Shown piece after piece: positions 1 through 6,294 of a stretch of 6,294 bases of DNA. The stretch is from Bacillota bacterium (GTDB taxonomy: Bacteria; Bacillota; Bacilli; Alicyclobacillales; SLC66). The stretch is from positions 1-6,294 of the forward strand of contig JAJZCJ010000194.1 of assembly GCA_021846145.1 (NCBI GenBank), given 5' to 3'. The translations under genes and the position numbers were made by a program. Each line of letters begins with the position of its first letter. Positions within the stretch are counted from its first letter, which is position 1. The notes under the pieces are model-generated. The model was not told the DNA's origin, did no database searches, and worked only from the letters and a program-made list of their open reading frames with translations.

Positions 1-351
1 GCCTACCTTGCGCAGCACTGCAGGCTCTGCAAGCAGGTCACTCATGTAAAGGTATCCACCAGGCAAAATACGATCCCCATGACTCAATTGATCAATGGCA
101 CCACTAATAAAATGTTCCGCGCGAACCCTAGAAATCCCTGGTTGATACACGACACCACCCATAGCGCCTGTCTGTGTATGCAAATTTCCTGCTTGTTCTG
201 TCTCGATCACCGATCGAATAATGGCAAGGTCTTCACTCAGTGAAGATTTAGCTGCGTCATACTCTTCAGCCATCTCCGTCAGGGAAAGCGGTTTGCCGGG
301 ATGATCCAGCAATTGGCGAGTCAACCGCACAATTCGTTCATTCCTGCGCAT
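1..351 (-). CDS. purR: Purine operon repressor PurR, N-terminal part (cut by the window edge)
   Basis: This is the first 117 codons of a PurR-type repressor; the 3' part lies beyond position 1. In B. subtilis PurR (about 285 residues) represses purine synthesis and transport genes, and PRPP relieves the repression. The visible part carries the winged-helix DNA-binding domain (residues 1 to about 74; recognition segment AAKSSLSEDLAIIR, residues 38-51). It also shows the start of the phosphoribosyltransferase-like PRPP-binding domain, including the conserved RILPGGYLYMSDLL. The PRPP loop itself is outside the window. The start is the ATG at 351, preceded by AAAGGAG eight bases upstream. It follows ispE by 98 bases, as in the standard Bacilli order. 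I see no PurBox (CCGAAC-type) pair in front of it, so autoregulation as described in B. subtilis is not apparent here. The family assignment is secure. Confidence 0.95.
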   Translation of the reverse strand, partial: MRRNERIVRLTRQLLDHPGKPLSLTEMAEEYDAAKSSLSEDLAIIRSVIETEQAGNLHTQTGAMGGVVYQPGISRVRAEHFISGAIDQLSHGDRILPGGYLYMSDLLAEPAVLRKVG

Positions 352-398
352 CCGCTGTTCTCCTTTCAAATCAACCTCTCATTCCTTATCCAAATCTG

Positions 399-428
399 AC
401 TATAGCACTCCTAGAATTCCCACTGCAA
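399..428 (-). promoter_or_regulatory. Possible sigma-A promoter for purR
   Basis: On the minus strand a -35-like TTGCAG (423-428) is separated by 18 bases from TATAGT (399-404), which is preceded by TGC, giving an extended -10. The -10 box matches five of six consensus bases but the -35 box only three. It lies in the 98-base gap between ispE and purR and would give a leader of roughly 40 bases. No terminator is visible between ispE and purR, so readthrough from ispE is also likely. Confidence 0.4.
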
Positions 429-449
429 CCTCCCCCTGATAATGCGCGA

Positions 450-1298
450 CTAACAGGTTTGACATAAATACACTTCTTTCATCACATTGCGTAAACTATT
501 ATAAATCCGTTTTGCCTTCTGTTCCTTGTCTGTGAGTCCAAAAACAGTCGGTCCACTTCCCGACATCAAACTAAAGACAGCCCCATGTTTGCATACCTGC
601 TCTTTTATCTTTTCAATTTCTGGGAATCGAATCAAGGTCACTTGTTCTAACACATTACCCGCCGCGTCTGCCACTCGTTGCAAAGATCCATCCTGCAACG
701 CTTCAACCATCAACTGTGCCTTGGGATGCTCCGTAATCTCATCTAACCTCAAATCTGCATAAATCTCCGCCGTAGACACCGCAATTGGTGGCTTAGCCAA
801 TACCACCCAATAAGTAGGATGTAACGGCAATGACTCCACCCATTCTCCTCGACCACGAACAATTGCCGTTCCGCCGGTAATACAAAATGGGACATCAGAA
901 CCCACTTGTGCTCCCAAGGCACTAATTTCCGAAATTGACAGCTTCATATTCCAAAGCTGATTTAACCCCCGAAGTACTGCCGCAGCATCAGATGAGCCTC
1001 CTGCCAATCCTGCAGCCACAGGAATGCGCTTGTCAATATCAATGTGCACACCTTTTTTAATTCCGTATAGGTGCCGAAATACTTGGGCTGCTTTATAAGC
1101 TAAATTTCTATCATCGACTGGTAAAAAGGGAACATTGACAGTAAGCGATAATTCCCCGTCATCTCGCGGATAAAGCGTAATATAGTCACTTAAATCAACT
1201 GTTTGCATAACAGATTCCAATTCGTGATAGCCATCATTACGCTTGTACTTCACATCAAGGGTGAGATTGATTTTCGCCCTAGCCCTTTCATAAATCAT
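450..1298 (-). CDS. ispE: 4-diphosphocytidyl-2-C-methyl-D-erythritol kinase (IspE)
   Basis: This cytoplasmic enzyme uses ATP to phosphorylate the 2-hydroxyl of CDP-methylerythritol in the MEP (non-mevalonate) route to isoprenoids. The 282-residue length is normal for the family (E. coli 283). All GHMP-kinase motifs are visible: ARAKINLTLDV at 6-16 with the catalytic Lys9, RNDGYHE at 20-26, the ATP-binding glycine-rich loop PVAAGLAGGSSDAA at 93-106, the catalytic aspartate in GSDVPFC (Asp135), and motif 3 MSGSGPTVFGL at 245-255. The ATG at 1298 is supported by AAGGGAG seven bases upstream; a nearby ATG five bases earlier is out of frame and stops at once. In most Bacilli ispE directly follows sspF, but here cphB and cphA lie between. 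Only about 40 bases separate the hairpin after cphA from ispE and they hold no clear sigma-A promoter, so its expression may depend on readthrough or on a promoter I cannot recognise. The gene looks intact. Confidence 0.97.
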   Translation of the reverse strand: MIYERARAKINLTLDVKYKRNDGYHELESVMQTVDLSDYITLYPRDDGELSLTVNVPFLPVDDRNLAYKAAQVFRHLYGIKKGVHIDIDKRIPVAAGLAGGSSDAAAVLRGLNQLWNMKLSISEISALGAQVGSDVPFCITGGTAIVRGRGEWVESLPLHPTYWVVLAKPPIAVSTAEIYADLRLDEITEHPKAQLMVEALQDGSLQRVADAAGNVLEQVTLIRFPEIEKIKEQVCKHGAVFSLMSGSGPTVFGLTDKEQKAKRIYNSLRNVMKEVYLCQTC

Positions 1299-1336
1299 CC
1301 CATCACTCCCTTAACTCATTTTACATGAATGCAATC

Positions 1337-1374
1337 AAAAATAGCACGAAATCCCCGCAAATCATTGCGGGGAT
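1337..1374 (-). terminator. Probable rho-independent terminator after cphA
   Basis: A perfect 10-bp stem (1365-1374 pairing with 1351-1360, sequence TTGCGGGGAT-type arms) closes a 4-base loop, 20 bases after the cphA stop codon. The tail reads TTCGTGCTATTTTTG on the minus strand, so the run of five Ts (1337-1341) sits about nine bases beyond the stem rather than next to it. That displacement suggests an imperfect, possibly leaky terminator. On the plus strand there is neither a T-run nor a gene for it to serve. Confidence 0.6.
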
Positions 1375-1394
1375 CCCTAACGTAAAAATTGTAC

Positions 1395-4031
1395 TTACCG
1401 TGCCTCAATAATTTCGCGACTCATCTGCATCAAACTAATTTCTTGACCACCATGATTCTCGATAATCTTGACTAAAGGTGCAAGCTTTTCGAAAAACATG
1501 ACCAGTACCTCGTAATGACTAAACTTGTTCAATGCATACTCCAGTGATTCCAATTCATTTAGCACTTTTGTCACCGCTACATTCGGACGCTCGCTTACTA
1601 CTGCATTGACAATCAAATTAGCTAGTTCACCTTGCCTGCGACCCCGCAGATCTACATCTTCTTTAACGACAATAGGTGAAAAATAGTGTGCCGCCATTCG
1701 CGCAGCGCCTTCAATCACATTGTCATGACGATCTCCAGGATAACCGATAATCGCCGGCACTGAACCTGTTGCCCATTTTTTTATCATATTCCCAATTGCT
1801 TTCATCCCATCTTCATTATGCCCGTAATCGAGAATGACTTTTAATCCCGATGGCATTTGATACATCTGAACACGACCCGGATTATGCAGTAATGGATGAA
1901 AACTATTCACAGCTGACCTGCAAATGGCTCTAGACACTCCCAGTTGCCTTGCCGCGGCAATCGCACAAAGCAAATTGTAAATATGAAAATCAGCAGTACC
2001 TTGAACCGATAGCGGAATATCTTGAATTTTTGCAATCGGCCATAATAGCGACCCTGCACCCTCCATCAGCCAACCATTACTTGCAAAAAAAGCTTGACCA
2101 TCCTCTTTTAAATGAGTATTAACGATAACATTGTCCTCTTCTTTACTTATCCACACAATCCGTGTTTTTAATTGTGCCGCTAATTTTACAAGTTCCTTAT
2201 CATCAGCATTTAATACCACCGTCCCACCTTCACGGACACATTCCGCGATCAGTGATTTAACGTGAACAATGTCGTCAATGGTCTTCAGTCCGTCTTGCCC
2301 AATATGATCACTCGTAATGTTGGTAAGCACCGCCACATCTGCTAAATCGTAACCCAACCCTTCGCGCAGGATTCCACCCCTTGCTGTTTCTAACACCGCC
2401 ACATCCACGGTAGGGTCAGACAGCACCATGTGCGCACTTTTTGGACCCGAGGCGTCTCCTGACCAAATTTTCTGATCACCGATAACCACCCCATCTGTGG
2501 TTGTCATTCCTACCACACGATTAGTTTTCTGTAAAATATGACTGATTAAGCGTGTCGTAGTGGTCTTCCCATTCGTGCCCGTCACACTAACAATTGGCAC
2601 ATGTGAATTGCTCCCCCTAGGAAACAGCGCATTGACAATGGCTTCACCCACATCCCGCGATTCACCAATGCTAGGAAAGTGATGCATGCGAATACCTGGT
2701 GCCGCATTGACTTCAATAATGGTTGCCTCCGAGTGCTCATCACTTATTTCACGGGCAATCAAATCTACCCCGCATACGTCTAACCCGATGACCACTGCAG
2801 CCTTCACTGCCGCGCTTGCATGCACAGGATGTACACGCGCAGTGACATCAATCGCGATCCCCCCTGTACTCAAGTTCGCACCATCGCGAAGAAATACCAC
2901 TTCTCCCACACCGGGAATTTGTGCCAATGTAATATTTTTTCTAGCGAGAAATTGTTGCACAAATTCATCCACAGGAATTTTTGTTAATGGTTTTTCATGG
3001 TCATCTCCACGTAACGGATCAAGATTAGCGATCTGAATTAACGCTTCTACTGAATGTTCCCCATCACCAACCACATGAGCAGGAACCCTCTCTGACGCTG
3101 CGACAAGCCTGCCATTTACCACTAACAATCGGTACTGTTTACCCACCATTTGTTCTTCAACAATCACTTGACTAGAAATTTTTTGTGCAAAGTAAAACGC
3201 CTGCTCCAAATCTGCAATTTGTTCTACTTCCAGCGTGACCCCTTGCCCCTGGCAGCCATCAAGTGGTTTGACGACTACTGGTTTACGCAAATTCCAAAAC
3301 CAGTGGCGCGCTTCTTCCAAAGTGATTGCCATGCCCCCCGCAGGCACGCAAAGACCGGCATCTTGCAACAAAAGTTTTGTCAGTTCTTTATCGCTGGCAA
3401 TATCAACTGCGACGGCTGAAGTTTGACTAGTCAGCGTCGCCTTTATCCACTTGCGATATTGCCCTGTCCCCAATTGTACTAGGCTATGCGTTCCCACCCG
3501 ACGAACTGGGATTTTCCTTTTTTTCGCCGCCCACACAATGGCTTTCGTACTCGGCCCCAAATCAGTAACAGCCTGCAGTCTCTGGACATCTGCCAGACGG
3601 CGCTCTAGATCAAATTCTAAGCCATTCACGCCAGCCTGAACGAGTTCGATTGCGATGTTGATCAATTGCGTCGCTACCGGCCTTGATTCTATCTCCATTA
3701 CCACGTCGTAAAGATTCGGCATCCCTGCATTGCGTGTTTTGCCATAGATCACTTCATACCCTAGCACGTGCTCCATTTCCAACACCACATGTTCTACAAT
3801 GTGGCCAAAATAAGTGCCTTCTCGCAACCTTTCCAGAAACCCGCCTTCCCGTCCTAGACCGCAATAATGCACAGCTAAACCTGGCAACTTTTGCAGCAGC
3901 CAATCTACAAACCCTGGGTATTGATTGCTTTCGCGAACTGTCAATTCCTCCAGATCTAGCCTCATTACAATAACCGGCCTGTGCAAGTACACGTTAGGTC
4001 CTTCAAGCACCCGCAAATTGACCACTTTCAA
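1395..4031 (-). CDS. cphA: Cyanophycin synthetase CphA
   Basis: CphA polymerises cyanophycin, a poly-aspartate backbone with arginine on each side chain, using two ATP-dependent ligations per step. The 878-residue length matches CphA1-type enzymes (about 870-900). The N domain (1 to ~160) has VIVMRLDLEEL (20-30) and GREGGFLERLREGTYFGHIVEH (60-81 region); HIVEH (77-81) resembles the metal-binding HxxEH of the primer-generating site reported in cyanobacterial CphA1. The ATP-grasp domain (~215-470), which adds aspartate, has VVKPLDG (253-259), a glycine loop reading CQGQG (260-264), and EVNAAPGIRMH (440-450). The Mur-ligase-like domain (~480-860), which adds arginine, has P-loop GTNGKTTTT (485-493), VLETARGGILREGLG (546-560), NPGR (717-720) and DYGHN (735-739). 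The start is TTG at 4031: it matches the family's N-terminus, has GAGGGGTG seven bases upstream, and overlaps the cphB stop by four bases. Oddities: the glycine loop lacks the usual Asn-His-x-Arg residues. No frameshift is seen. Confidence 0.97.
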   Translation of the reverse strand: MKVVNLRVLEGPNVYLHRPVIVMRLDLEELTVRESNQYPGFVDWLLQKLPGLAVHYCGLGREGGFLERLREGTYFGHIVEHVVLEMEHVLGYEVIYGKTRNAGMPNLYDVVMEIESRPVATQLINIAIELVQAGVNGLEFDLERRLADVQRLQAVTDLGPSTKAIVWAAKKRKIPVRRVGTHSLVQLGTGQYRKWIKATLTSQTSAVAVDIASDKELTKLLLQDAGLCVPAGGMAITLEEARHWFWNLRKPVVVKPLDGCQGQGVTLEVEQIADLEQAFYFAQKISSQVIVEEQMVGKQYRLLVVNGRLVAASERVPAHVVGDGEHSVEALIQIANLDPLRGDDHEKPLTKIPVDEFVQQFLARKNITLAQIPGVGEVVFLRDGANLSTGGIAIDVTARVHPVHASAAVKAAVVIGLDVCGVDLIAREISDEHSEATIIEVNAAPGIRMHHFPSIGESRDVGEAIVNALFPRGSNSHVPIVSVTGTNGKTTTTRLISHILQKTNRVVGMTTTDGVVIGDQKIWSGDASGPKSAHMVLSDPTVDVAVLETARGGILREGLGYDLADVAVLTNITSDHIGQDGLKTIDDIVHVKSLIAECVREGGTVVLNADDKELVKLAAQLKTRIVWISKEEDNVIVNTHLKEDGQAFFASNGWLMEGAGSLLWPIAKIQDIPLSVQGTADFHIYNLLCAIAAARQLGVSRAICRSAVNSFHPLLHNPGRVQMYQMPSGLKVILDYGHNEDGMKAIGNMIKKWATGSVPAIIGYPGDRHDNVIEGAARMAAHYFSPIVVKEDVDLRGRRQGELANLIVNAVVSERPNVAVTKVLNELESLEYALNKFSHYEVLVMFFEKLAPLVKIIENHGGQEISLMQMSREIIEAR

Positions 4032-4852
4032 ACAGGTTCACCCCTCGTAAGGCGTTCTATATCCGGTTGCCGCTCCCGCAATAAAAAGTGATATCCTGCC
4101 GGCAACACATGAAGCTTTACCCCGTAAAGTGCCATTGGGTCATCCTTTTGTAATCTATCTATATTGGAAAACAGCAGCGCTCCCGCATCCACAATTACCA
4201 CTGCGCCTTTGCCAATGACCTCTAGCTCATTTCCATTCACGATGACCGCCGTATTTTCATCAATGCCAAGCCCTAAATGGTGTGGATATTTAGCGACAGC
4301 AGCAAGCAACCTACCCAGCCTTCCTCGCTGCGCAAAGTGCTGATCGATGACAACGCCATCAATAAATTCCATCCCCGGTGCCATCGTCACAATTCCTTGT
4401 CGCGGATTAGTGTCGCCTGAGCCATCGACAATCATCGTACTACTCATCATCGAGGCACCTGCGCTTGTTCCACCTAACACCACCCCACTTGCATGCCTAG
4501 CATGCAACGCAGCATCGACCGTAGTGCCTCCCAAAAGCTCAGTAATACGGATTTGTTCTCCCCCCGTAAAAAAAACGCCTGTGGCCTGTTCAATGGCTTT
4601 ACATGCGCTATCTCGATTGGCCGCCTGCCTAGAGGACACATCAAACGTACGCACATCCTCCACGCTCAAGCGTCCAAATGCGTCAATATAATCTGCCCCC
4701 ACTTCAATCGGCACCTTCGTCGCTACCGTCATGACCACAATGCGCGCATGTGTTCCACCAGCCAAGCGAACAAACTCTCGCAAAATCGACATGTCTTCAT
4801 GCTTATCTTCTGCACCGCCAACAATGACAAGAGGACCCCTGTGTCCACTCAT
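4028..4852 (-). CDS. cphB: Cyanophycinase CphB
   Basis: CphB is a cytoplasmic serine exopeptidase (family S51) that degrades cyanophycin to beta-Asp-Arg dipeptides. The 274 residues compare with 271 in Synechocystis. The nucleophile elbow GGTSAGA (127-133) places Ser130; FFTGGEQIR (94-102) supplies the conserved Gln; DQHF (170-173) gives His172, and GIDENTA (196-202) gives Glu199. These match, with a constant offset of two, the Ser132/His174/Glu201 set I recall for Synechocystis CphB. The N-terminal VIVGGAEDK (9-17) is also typical. There is no signal peptide or membrane segment, so it acts inside the cell. The ATG at 4852 is forced by an in-frame TAA just six bases upstream, yet the only good Shine-Dalgarno match, GGAGG (4866-4870), is 13 bases away, which is long. 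The gene's TGA overlaps the TTG start of cphA (TTGA, 4028-4031). The promoter is not evident: only about 38 bases separate the sspF terminator from this start. Confidence 0.96.
   Translation of the reverse strand: MSGHRGPLVIVGGAEDKHEDMSILREFVRLAGGTHARIVVMTVATKVPIEVGADYIDAFGRLSVEDVRTFDVSSRQAANRDSACKAIEQATGVFFTGGEQIRITELLGGTTVDAALHARHASGVVLGGTSAGASMMSSTMIVDGSGDTNPRQGIVTMAPGMEFIDGVVIDQHFAQRGRLGRLLAAVAKYPHHLGLGIDENTAVIVNGNELEVIGKGAVVIVDAGALLFSNIDRLQKDDPMALYGVKLHVLPAGYHFLLRERQPDIERLTRGEPV
4039..4046 (-). promoter_or_regulatory. Ribosome binding site of cphA, deciding its TTG start
   Basis: GAGGGGTG on the minus strand lies inside the last codons of cphB, seven bases before TTG at 4031. There is no ATG or GTG in frame close to this site, and the conserved CphA N-terminus begins right at the TTG. 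The four-base TTGA overlap points to translational coupling of cphA to cphB. Confidence 0.75.
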
Positions 4853-4890
4853 AATTTACAATCGACCTCCAAATTGACTACCCTTTATTC

Positions 4891-4917
4891 AAAAGAGGCG
4901 GCCTCCACAGCCGCCCC
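4891..4917 (-). terminator. Rho-independent terminator after sspF
   Basis: On the minus strand GGGGCGGC (4910-4917) pairs with GCCGCCTC (4895-4902) in an 8-bp stem with one G-U pair and a 7-base loop, followed directly by TTTTGAAT. It begins about 18 bases past the TGA-TAA double stop of sspF. The GC-rich stem is convincing but the T-run is only four long, so some readthrough into cphB is possible. Confidence 0.65.
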
Positions 4918-4935
4918 AGTCGCAACTCTCTGTTA

Positions 4936-5124
4936 TCATCCCGACCCCTTCGTACGCATCGCTAAAGACTCCTCAGCAATTTCGATGGCGCGTTTGACCA
5001 TATTTCCGGCATCACGCGTAGTAATTCCACCCCATCCTTCTTGCATCAAAGTAGGGTAAAAACCTAATTCTTTCGCCAATTCGTACTTCAGCGACTCAGA
5101 CATCATTGTTCGCCTTCGTCCCAT
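4936..5124 (-). CDS. sspF: Small acid-soluble spore protein SspF (minor alpha/beta-type SASP)
   Basis: This 62-residue protein closely resembles B. subtilis SspF (61 residues). Shared blocks include the MGRRR start, [11 protein letters not shown] (13-23), GWGGI (30-34) and [15 protein letters not shown] (37-51), with a lysine- and glycine-containing tail. SspF belongs to the DNA-binding SASP group made in the forespore, which coats and protects spore DNA. The reading frame is open for 25 more codons upstream, but the start is placed at the ATG at 5124. There the family's N-terminus begins and a strong AAGGGGGGT Shine-Dalgarno (5131-5139) sits six bases away; the open upstream part overlaps the promoter and veg terminator. 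The gene ends in a double stop, TGA TAA. It appears monocistronic, with a terminator on each side and a sigma-G-like promoter of its own. Its 3' neighbour is normally ispE; here it is cphB. Confidence 0.95.
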
Positions 5125-5159
5125 GTCGGAACCCCCCTTCGGGAAATTGCGTCCTTTTG

Positions 5160-5188
5160 TAGCTTGCCCCCCTATTACCTGCTTATGC
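5160..5188 (-). promoter_or_regulatory. Candidate sigma-G (forespore) promoter of sspF
   Basis: On the minus strand GCATA (5184-5188) fits the sigma-G -35 pattern GHATR. CAAGCTA (5160-5166) matches five of seven bases of the -10 pattern CATNHTA, at a 17-base spacing. Transcription would start near 5152, leaving a leader of about 28 bases with the Shine-Dalgarno in the right place. The -35 box lies immediately after the tail of the veg terminator. B. subtilis sspF is known to be forespore-expressed, which supports the reading; the -10 match is imperfect. Confidence 0.45.
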
Positions 5189-5190
5189 CT

Positions 5191-5237
5191 TAAACACAAA
5201 TAAGGCTGTCTCCCGCCAACTCGACGGAAAACAGCCT
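5191..5237 (-). terminator. Strong rho-independent terminator after veg
   Basis: On the minus strand the arm 5223-5237 (AGGCTGTTTTCCGTC) pairs with 5203-5217 (GGCGGGAGACAGCCT) over 15 bp, including three G-U pairs, around the 5-base loop GAGTT. The tail TTATTTGTGTTT (5191-5202) is U-rich. It lies about 58 bases past the veg stop codon and isolates veg from sspF. Confidence 0.85.
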
Positions 5238-5264
5238 CAGTAGATCAATTACCAGAGTCACTAA

Positions 5265-5298
5265 CACAATCATTTAAAAATTAAATCACAATCATTTA
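5265..5298. repeat. 12-bp direct repeat spanning the veg stop codon
   Basis: CACAATCATTTA (plus-strand reading) occurs exactly at 5265-5276 and again at 5287-5298, a period of 22 bases. The second copy contains the veg stop codon (TAA on the minus strand, 5296-5298). The AT-rich stretch between the copies, TAAAAATTAAAT-like, is nearly self-complementary. It could be a replication-slippage duplication or chance; no function is evident. Confidence 0.5.
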
Positions 5299-5571
5299 TT
5301 CAGCGCTACCGACTCGGATTTGTTCATCCTCACGAAGCACCAGTAATTCAACAGTTGCAGTCAAGACATCGGCATAACTATAAGATACTCGCTTAAACGA
5401 ACTCTCCGCCTGATCAAGTTTAACAACAAAAACCGAAGGATAGGTTTCCTCCAAAACGCCTGTCCTCTCCACCGTTTTGCGACGTCCACCATTGGCACGC
5501 AGCAAGATCTTTTCACCCACAAGAGTTTCCAGATTACGCCGAATATCCTGCAAAGCGTTCTTTGCAGACAC
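5296..5571 (-). CDS. veg: Veg protein (DUF1021 family)
   Basis: Veg is a small, highly expressed protein of Bacilli. In B. subtilis (86 residues) it was reported to stimulate biofilm formation by counteracting the repressor SinR, and was earlier linked to spore outgrowth; its biochemical activity is not established. This copy has 91 residues. The diagnostic blocks are all present: [12 protein letters not shown] (25-36), [13 protein letters not shown] (42-54) and [11 protein letters not shown] (61-71). The C-terminal tail is acidic, variable and slightly longer than in B. subtilis. The fold is expected to be a small beta-barrel. The start is GTG at 5571, with GAGGTGGAG ending five bases upstream; no in-frame ATG exists near it. 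Upstream are two tandem sigma-A promoters in an AT-rich region, fitting the very strong veg promoter known in B. subtilis. Downstream is a strong terminator, so the gene is a single transcription unit between yabG and sspF, its usual place. Confidence 0.96.
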
Positions 5572-5596
5572 CTACTCCACCTCGTTTCATAGATGA

Positions 5597-5625
5597 AGTA
5601 TAGCACAAGTCAAAAAATGTGTCAA
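5597..5625 (-). promoter_or_regulatory. veg proximal sigma-A promoter (P2)
   Basis: On the minus strand a consensus TTGACA (5620-5625) is followed after exactly 17 bases by TATACT (5597-5602), which is preceded by TGC, making an extended -10. Transcription would start near 5590, giving a short leader of about 20 bases that still includes the Shine-Dalgarno site. Confidence 0.85.
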
Positions 5626-5635
5626 GGAATTAGTC

Positions 5636-5665
5636 ATTATATCAATGCTGGATTGTTCTTGTCAA
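5636..5665 (-). promoter_or_regulatory. veg distal sigma-A promoter (P1)
   Basis: On the minus strand both hexamers are perfect: TTGACA (5660-5665) and TATAAT (5636-5641), separated by 18 bases. AT-rich tracts lie just upstream (about 5666-5692), as in UP elements that bind the RNA polymerase alpha subunit. The two -10 boxes are 39 bases apart, so P1 and P2 are tandem and their polymerase footprints would overlap. Confidence 0.88.
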
Positions 5666-5708
5666 TATTATAAAATAAGTTTTTCATATTTTCATTGCTC
5701 CCATGTGG

Positions 5709-6294
5709 TCAAAATCGAGAACGGGGCAAGCCGATTCTGTATTTTCCCCGAGATTCAATCCCACCTAACCCCTCAATCCCAGTGATAGTGGATTGCACCA
5801 CTTCATAGATATCAATCGTTTCGTGAATCGGCGTAAAGGCAATTTTTTCGGCCACCAATACGGGATCAAGCGCATGAATCAAAATTCGTTCCGGCGAACT
5901 GGCAAAGTTGGCTCCTGCTTCTAATAACGCTTCAAAATGAGACTGGCAGGCTCCTGCAAAGATGATTAACTCATCCAAACTTCGTTCATATCGCCTCGCC
6001 GCACGCACTGCCTGTACGAAATGATTCGAGTTGCGGTATTGATCCATACGCAGCATTTCACTGTGCTTACCTTCGCGCAGTACACTGTCATGGCCTGTGA
6101 TAATTAAAATATCTGGTTCATACTCGCTTAAAAGTTTGGGCATGAAATTCACCATTTCTGCCTCAGGTAAATTTTTCCCGACCGCGCGAATGCCTAGTTT
6201 ATTATACGTCTGCAGGCATTTCTCCAAGTAGGTGCCATCGCCATCTAGATGAAGCACACGGCCAGGCAATTCAAAAAAATCTTCGAATTTTCGC
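5709..6294 (-). CDS. yabG: Sporulation-specific cysteine protease YabG, C-terminal part (cut by the window edge)
   Basis: The frame is open to the right-hand edge, so the start lies outside the window; an internal TTG at 6269 is not the start because the family sequence RKFEDFFELPGR continues through it. About 194 residues are visible of a protein that is about 290 long in B. subtilis. YabG is made in the mother cell and processes spore-coat proteins such as SafA and SpoIVA. Recognisable blocks are PGRVLHLDGDGTYLEKCL, EPDILIITGHD, FAGACQSHFEALLEAGANFASSPERILIH (key residues Cys, His, Glu) and the end IGLPRSRF. The His in ITGHD and the Cys in AGACQSH lie 48 residues apart and probably correspond to the catalytic pair reported for B. 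subtilis YabG (His172 and Cys218, from memory). The gene ends with TGA at 5709-5711, and no terminator is seen before the veg promoters, so yabG transcripts may run on into veg. Confidence 0.95.
   Translation of the reverse strand, partial: RKFEDFFELPGRVLHLDGDGTYLEKCLQTYNKLGIRAVGKNLPEAEMVNFMPKLLSEYEPDILIITGHDSVLREGKHSEMLRMDQYRNSNHFVQAVRAARRYERSLDELIIFAGACQSHFEALLEAGANFASSPERILIHALDPVLVAEKIAFTPIHETIDIYEVVQSTITGIEGLGGIESRGKYRIGLPRSRF

Follow-up and report, generated by a model that had tools for sequence, protein, structure and literature searches.

In Clostridium perfringens cyanophycin has been tied to spore assembly (Liu 2016, as cited in PMC5532821, PMC13241827 and PMC6174930), in C. ljungdahlii the cyanophycinase gene cphB was reported among the upregulated sporulation genes (PMC13241827), and in segmented filamentous bacteria, where cphAB and ispE lie beside a ger operon, a use of cyanophycin in germination has been proposed (PMC9482736). 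We analysed a stretch of 6,294 nucleotides from a Bacillota bacterium of the Alicyclobacillales (GCA_021846145.1, contig JAJZCJ010000194.1, positions 1 to 6,294), referred to below as the window, which carries a complete cphB-cphA pair (cphBA) between an sspF-like gene and ispE. The pair occupies positions 1395-4852, as an earlier note on this DNA had it, and family matches and gene order agree on the arrangement yabG-veg-sspF-[cphBA]-ispE-purR. All seven genes, yabG, veg, an alpha/beta-type small acid-soluble protein (SASP) gene similar to sspF, cphB, cphA, ispE and purR, are on the minus strand. The outer genes, yabG on the 5' side and purR, are each truncated by an end of the window, and the reading frames of cphB and cphA are open throughout and intact.

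The window resembles the segmented filamentous bacteria, the sole case of this neighbourhood that we met in print, in having cphBA next to ispE in a spore former, but it has yabG-veg-sspF upstream and purR downstream, and there is no ger operon in the window. With C. perfringens it shares a CphA in a spore former with a link to sporulation, although that species belongs to another class, and the spore role was proposed there from work on spores whereas it is predicted here. The nearest named proteins are those of Sulfoacidibacillus and Ferroacidibacillus, beside which the CphA tree also sets the window, so the host is an Alicyclobacillaceae-like spore former.

Our reading, to which we give a probability of about two in three on the evidence of sequence comparison, is that the window holds a standard cphBA system at an ancestral address, inherited vertically and forming its own transcription unit, and that in the family this unit would have a forespore promoter and a forespore use, while the copy of that promoter in the window is no longer recognisable. 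What the analysis adds is an arrangement that looks ancestral and a family promoter that predicts forespore expression. This gives a testable prediction at the family level, namely that cyanophycin metabolism belongs to the forespore programme.

The cphBA-ispE address and its inheritance

Two genome samples were searched for CphA. In the phylum sample (398 Bacillota genomes) it was found at E <= 1e-150 in 122 genomes, 118 of them above the cut-off, with 123 cphA genes in total; in the class sample (348 Bacilli) 53 genomes had CphA. For 107 of the 123 cphA genes, ispE is the next gene downstream and is read from the same strand, the median gap being 156 bp. Of the remaining 16, at least one (G291) may be linked, as it sits at the end of its contig; G401 gave no IspE match. 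Similarly, cphA is upstream of ispE in 48 of the 53 Bacilli, four others have it elsewhere and one (G635) ends at a contig edge. Five named Bacillota gave a full cphA match; in four of them the gene is at ispE (Clostridium rectalis, Syntrophomonadaceae bacterium, Peptococcaceae bacterium and a Bacillota metagenome-assembled genome), and in Acetivibrio straminisolvens cphA and ispE lie on separate contigs. One genome (G043) has a second full cphA gene elsewhere (C3), in addition to the one upstream of ispE (C7).

The exact order yabG-veg-sspF-cphB-cphA-ispE-purR was present in 41 of the 52 Bacilli regions retrieved. The neighbourhood was more variable in 120 regions of the phylum sample (including one, L183, from a Bacilli genome), of which 37 had veg and six an SspF-type SASP before cphB. 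The neighbours were surveyed by Pfam on representatives of 18 of the 30 largest clusters, the other 12 including several on the strand opposite to cphA. Spore genes are also among the neighbour clusters at the non-Bacilli junction: SipL/LysM (59 loci), SpoVG (22) and SpoIIR (10). The first of these, a LysM/SipL-type spore morphogenesis protein (representative L235), is a frequent neighbour upstream of cphB. Other representatives were RsmA, GlmU, TatD, an NTP transferase, an amidase and a protein with a weak match to serine proteases. Both the arrangement and the proteins of the window are ordinary for spore-forming Bacillota that have cphBA. The junction is the usual place of the pair, and the unusual insertion supposed in the earlier note is not supported.

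For genomes without cphA, 50 were hand-picked from SpoIVA-positive lists (24 Bacilli, out of 185 SpoIVA-positive and CphA-negative Bacilli in the sample, and 26 others) and searched for IspE and Veg. In all 24 Bacilli the distance from veg to ispE was 442-856 bp, which as judged by distance leaves room for little beyond sspF, compared with 3998 bp in the window and 3310-10909 bp in 83 cphA-bearing loci. This fits the statement of the earlier note that sspF and ispE are normally adjacent. Among the 26 non-Bacilli, veg gave no match (6), was on another contig or strand (7), or was at least 4.7 kb off (13), so a close veg-ispE pair is not general outside Bacilli.

Bacilli were separated from the rest without exception in the trees of CphA, CphB and IspE (144 junction loci) and of YabG (69), with support of 0.995-1.0; a genome is called "non-Bacilli" here according to these trees and because the class sample does not contain it. 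A single clade of 56 leaves (support 1.0) unites the window and its relatives with the linked Bacilli CphA and takes in no outside sequence. L320, scored unlinked, belongs to it as well; its contig stops short of ispE. CphA distances between pairs of loci were correlated with those of IspE (Spearman 0.59 over all loci, 0.72 among Bacilli). A larger clade of 185 leaves holds every junction CphA, together with 17 unlinked Bacillota copies, the five named Bacillota loci and four actinobacterial sequences; its support of 0.95 fell to 0.68 after rerooting, and values near the root shifted with the rooting. The four actinobacterial CphA (L003, L006, L008 and L014) are a possible case of transfer out of Bacillota. 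Furthermore, 23 of the 24 cphA-less Bacilli give the IspE of the window a better score than do all 56 other genomes compared; the remaining one, G519, falls below two of the 56. Transport of ispE into the window lineage within a clostridial block is therefore disfavoured.

Since the four gene trees split Bacilli cleanly, old vertical inheritance with loss elsewhere is favoured: an old cphBA-ispE junction would have been kept in Alicyclobacillales and in many non-Bacilli lineages and lost from most other Bacilli, the direction of change being deduced from these comparisons. Scattered cphBA loci in close relatives, the first of the observations that the earlier note named as counting against a sporulation link, were looked for and not found. 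A mobile or horizontally acquired cassette is likewise not supported, as close relatives show no differing addresses and CphA has no tree position among unrelated taxa.

Forespore-type promoter signals and co-occurrence with sporulation

The sigma consensus strings used in our scans are general background knowledge. The signal scanned was GYATA, 14 to 16 nt, GGNNANAMTA (sigma-F/G type) at a threshold score of 9, the sigma-F string having been tightened after the first matches had been seen. Representatives were cut at 80% CphA identity, giving 27 of 44 loci for Bacilli (25 long enough) and 74 of 94, from 98 linked loci, for the others; start codons in relatives were picked by script. Before cphB, 11 of the 25 Bacilli representatives and 33 of the 74 from outside Bacilli scored at least 9 with the consensus, against 0 and 0.3% of shuffled sequences. 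The distance from the end of the signal to the start of cphB was 28-45 bp in 28 of the 33 non-Bacilli and 22-100 bp in the 11 Bacilli. As controls, the regions before veg and ispE gave 0, and those before sspF in Bacilli 19%. In the same type of analysis a sigma-A signal was found before veg (96% and 76%, mean z 4.3-5.1), but none was found upstream of cphB in the same scan (mean z 0.07-0.20).

A matrix built from 22 Bacilli training sites gave a mean z of 2.38 on the 74 non-Bacilli cphB regions, with 49% above z 2.5. Its controls were 4% on the reverse strand, 4% for ispE and 0% for veg, with sspF in Bacilli as the positive control (44%). The matrix was trained on Bacilli only, although some non-Bacilli matches were already in view when its layout (5-mer, 14-16 nt, 10-mer) was fixed. 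Sigma-F and sigma-G elements are reported to resemble each other closely, those of sigma-F having a G upstream of the -10 and those of sigma-G an A downstream of it (PMC3789822); the cphB motif has both. A forespore-type promoter signal before cphB is common in junction cphBA and not a defining feature, as a little under half of the representatives pass.

The family promoter of cphBA would accordingly be of the sigma-F/G type, and because it is forespore-type, cyanophycin is probably built or recycled in the forespore. There it would serve as a reserve of Arg and Asp for outgrowth, or as spore material.

The distribution of CphA points in the same direction. SpoIVA (TIGR02836) was found in 335 of 398 phylum and 236 of 348 Bacilli genomes. 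It was present in 118 of 122 CphA-positive against 217 of 276 CphA-negative genomes of the phylum sample (p = 9e-7), and in 51 of 53 against 185 of 295 in Bacilli (p = 1e-7; Fisher tests, both uncorrected for kinship). The sporulation link raised in the earlier note is therefore plausible for the family in view of this co-occurrence and the promoter signal; in the window no forespore promoter of cphB was recognised.

Going further, cyanophycin metabolism may have been part of the endospore programme from its origin: the ancestor shared by Bacilli and Clostridia would have had cphBA in its forespore regulon, next to veg-sspF and ispE, and the lineage of the model Bacillus would have lost it; we put this forward tentatively, at somewhat less than even odds. 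If true, it would explain why spore biology leaves cyanophycin out of the stores of the spore. An amino-acid reserve would be added to the known spore contents, and the role of cyanophycin in Firmicutes would be addressed.

The window locus and competing explanations

The features of the window are as follows, from the upstream end of the genes to the downstream end.

5709..6293, minus strand: yabG, sporulation protease (TIGR02855, 283.8 bits; PF05582), 5' end beyond the window
5636..5665, minus strand: sigma-A type promoter of veg, 12/12 matches
5296..5571, minus strand: veg (PF06257, NF046033)
5201..5239, minus strand: terminator-like hairpin 3' of veg, from the terminator scan
5160..5188, minus strand: forespore-type promoter-like site of sspF (GCATA, 14 nt, GGGCAAGCTA)
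4936..5124, minus strand: sspF-like alpha/beta SASP gene (PF00269, 31.5 bits, cut-off 22), with similar genes in relatives
4895..4917, minus strand: predicted intrinsic terminator between sspF and cphB (-19.8 kcal/mol for 4885-4938, z -2.96), conserved in relatives
4886..4890, minus strand: GAATA, the sole -35-like element noted between terminator and cphB, with no -10 element recognised
4866..4870, minus strand: GGAGG, likely ribosome binding site of cphB, 13 nt from the ATG, a long spacing
4028..4852, minus strand: cphB, cyanophycinase (peptidase S51) of 274 amino acids (TIGR02069, 303.9 bits, cut-off 126.6)
1395..4031, minus strand: cphA, cyanophycin synthetase 1 of 878 amino acids (TIGR02068, 1123.9 bits, cut-off 850), TTG start overlapping the cphB stop
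1348..1377, minus strand: predicted intrinsic terminator 3' of cphA (-25.1 kcal/mol for 1330-1394, z -5.19)
450..1298, minus strand: ispE (TIGR00154, 301.5 bits)
1..369, minus strand: purR, N-terminal part (PF09182, TIGR01743)

The gap between sspF and cphB is 83 bp, and 96 bp separate the cphA stop from the ispE start. The start of sspF was placed at the conserved MGRRR, the listed open reading frame extending to 5199. Since NCBIfam gave no match for the SASP, its name rests on position and on the similar genes in relatives. Upstream of veg there is a second, neighbouring sigma-A promoter (5625-5597, 11/12 matches), and TG precedes the -10 in both. An Rfam scan of the window returned nothing at gathering score.

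Terminator-type hairpins follow veg, sspF and cphA in the window, although the region as a whole has about as many such matches as expected (5 against 3.8). In 39 of 44 Bacilli loci, the window included, a terminator after sspF scores at least 18, compared with 6% of shuffled sequences. A looser count at the same place (43 of 44) was set aside as inflated, since 61% of shuffles also match; after cphA a loose scan, run without a shuffle control, gave 33 of 44. Because a terminator follows sspF, cphBA is probably a separate transcription unit behind it. The earlier note had drawn the spore link from the position directly behind a forespore gene, an argument that is undercut by sspF ending in its own terminator.

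Behind this terminator only GAATA remains before the cphB of the window. In close relatives, the first consensus before cphB scored 8.0-10.5 (L303, L299 and L305) and 4.4 (L306), and L320 has a strong cphB site by the matrix. As genes and address are kept in the window and the promoter is unrecognisable, its cphBA may now be expressed differently, or may rely on read-through from sspF. Since no copy of the promoter is recognisable, a sporulation link for the window strain is something we infer.

Several observations weigh against our reading. The best consensus score before cphB in the window was 3.0, against a shuffled mean of 3.6, and with the matrix over the 330 bp upstream, 77% of shuffles were as good. 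Over half of the family representatives miss the consensus threshold. Outside Bacilli, the regions upstream of cphA also score, 15 of 72 (21%) by consensus and 31% by matrix, a signal that may be in part real promoters and in part coding-sequence bias. The matrix signal was also present at cphB in 5 of 18 loci scored unlinked, two of which (L214 and L320) have the yabG-veg-sspF side and stop at a contig edge. Distances of CphA and Veg correlate poorly outside Bacilli (0.21), and the preference for loss over gain draws on trees of cphA-bearing loci. Finally, 2 of 53 and 4 of 122 CphA-positive genomes had no SpoIVA match, which may reflect gaps in the genomes; the two Bacilli are G659 (cphA unlinked) and G715 (cphA linked). 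Sporulation thus seems not to be strictly required for cphBA.

The alternative most worth attention, still an unlikely one in our estimate, is that cyanophycin is a vegetative nitrogen reserve and that cphBA, unconnected with sporulation, has kept its place next to ispE by chance or because the region was not rearranged. Such a use is known elsewhere (PMC10206079), it would suit both the missing promoter in the window and the six genomes of the two samples without SpoIVA, and in C. ljungdahlii cphB transcripts increase as spo0A declines (PMC13241827). It leaves unexplained why cphBA co-occurs with SpoIVA, and why the family has a forespore-type signal upstream of cphB and no sigma-A signal there, though the latter is found before veg. 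A spore link could also arise by read-through from sspF, that is, by co-transcription with the forespore gene in front. The window does have a forespore-type site at sspF, none recognised for cphB, and a short gap between them, but the terminator in this gap, its conservation in relatives, and the many relatives with their own promoter signal between sspF and cphB make this explanation rather less likely still.

Two further explanations seem to us improbable. The product of the synthetase might be a relative of classical cyanophycin that contains, for instance, Lys or other residues; CphA2-like enzymes have been reported for a Bacillus (PMC5532821), and substrate choice here is predicted, yet the full-length score to the CphA1 equivalog and the adjoining cyanophycinase argue for the classical product. 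The least probable is a recent insertion or transfer of the cassette into the sspF-ispE junction of the window lineage. The closed junction of the 24 cphA-less Bacilli would agree with it, the unlinked cphA of G659 and G365 sit with proteobacterial sequences at weak support (0.44), and cphA relatives below 60% identity occur on plasmids (142 records, none close to the cphA of the window). It is largely contradicted by the address shared across Bacilli and the phylum and by the clean Bacilli clade in four gene trees. What is left of the transfer idea is that a single very early event, at the stem of Alicyclobacillales, may have placed cphBA in exactly the same junction.

The encoded enzymes and cyanophycin breakdown

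By sequence, the pair is a standard, canonical CphA1/cyanophycinase system. The TIGR02068 equivalog match spans residues 2-860 of the 878 of CphA, whose N, ATP-grasp and Mur-ligase domains follow in this order (PF18921, PF08443, PF08245, PF02875). Its N domain has C57, H77, E80 and H81, which form the full Cx19HxxEH motif, a motif linked to primer-independent (self-priming) synthesis (PMC9262961). All 47 Bacilli junction copies carry the complete motif, as do 102 of the 104 junction copies from elsewhere, 19 of 20 unlinked copies and 50 of 70 comparison sequences; five of these 70 are from Bacillota. Solved CphA1 structures (7lg5, 7wac and others) share with the window CphA the length, the three domains, the TGTNGKTT loop and the Cx19HxxEH motif, and 7lg5 matches residues 1-858; the window sequence differs in belonging to the Bacilli junction clade and in having a product predicted from sequence. 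The solved cyanophycinases 7uqv, 7uqw and 3en0 match CphB over nearly its whole length with no notable difference, and they have in common with it the GTSAG motif.

In the mechanism expected from these families, CphA1 would use ATP to build the Asp backbone and attach Arg, with the metallopeptidase-like site of its N domain letting such an enzyme make its own primers, and CphB would cut the polymer to beta-Asp-Arg. For the last step of breakdown, IadA was found in 36 of the 53 CphA-positive Bacilli (35 above the cut-off). It has been reported that of 179 Firmicutes genomes with CphA1, all with cyanophycinase, 10.1% have a known isoaspartyl dipeptidase (PMC10206079); by comparison with this figure, Alicyclobacillales seem better equipped for the last step than the average. 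Outside Bacilli, no isoaspartyl dipeptidase was evident among the conserved neighbours in the 18 scanned cluster representatives. The 17 CphA-positive Bacilli without an IadA match (including G462, G415, G507, G496, G529, G449, G572, G551, G518 and G540) may use a novel isoaspartyl dipeptidase or some other enzyme.

In the literature searched, which excluded most subscription journals, we found no account of a phylum-wide cphBA-ispE junction or of a forespore promoter of cphBA. Where iadA is on the same contig as a junction cphA it lies about 0.8 Mb or more away, and otherwise it is on another contig. In two Bacilli with unlinked cphA (G419:C4 and G412:C10), iadA is about 1 kb upstream of cphA, and these loci look like self-contained catabolic clusters.

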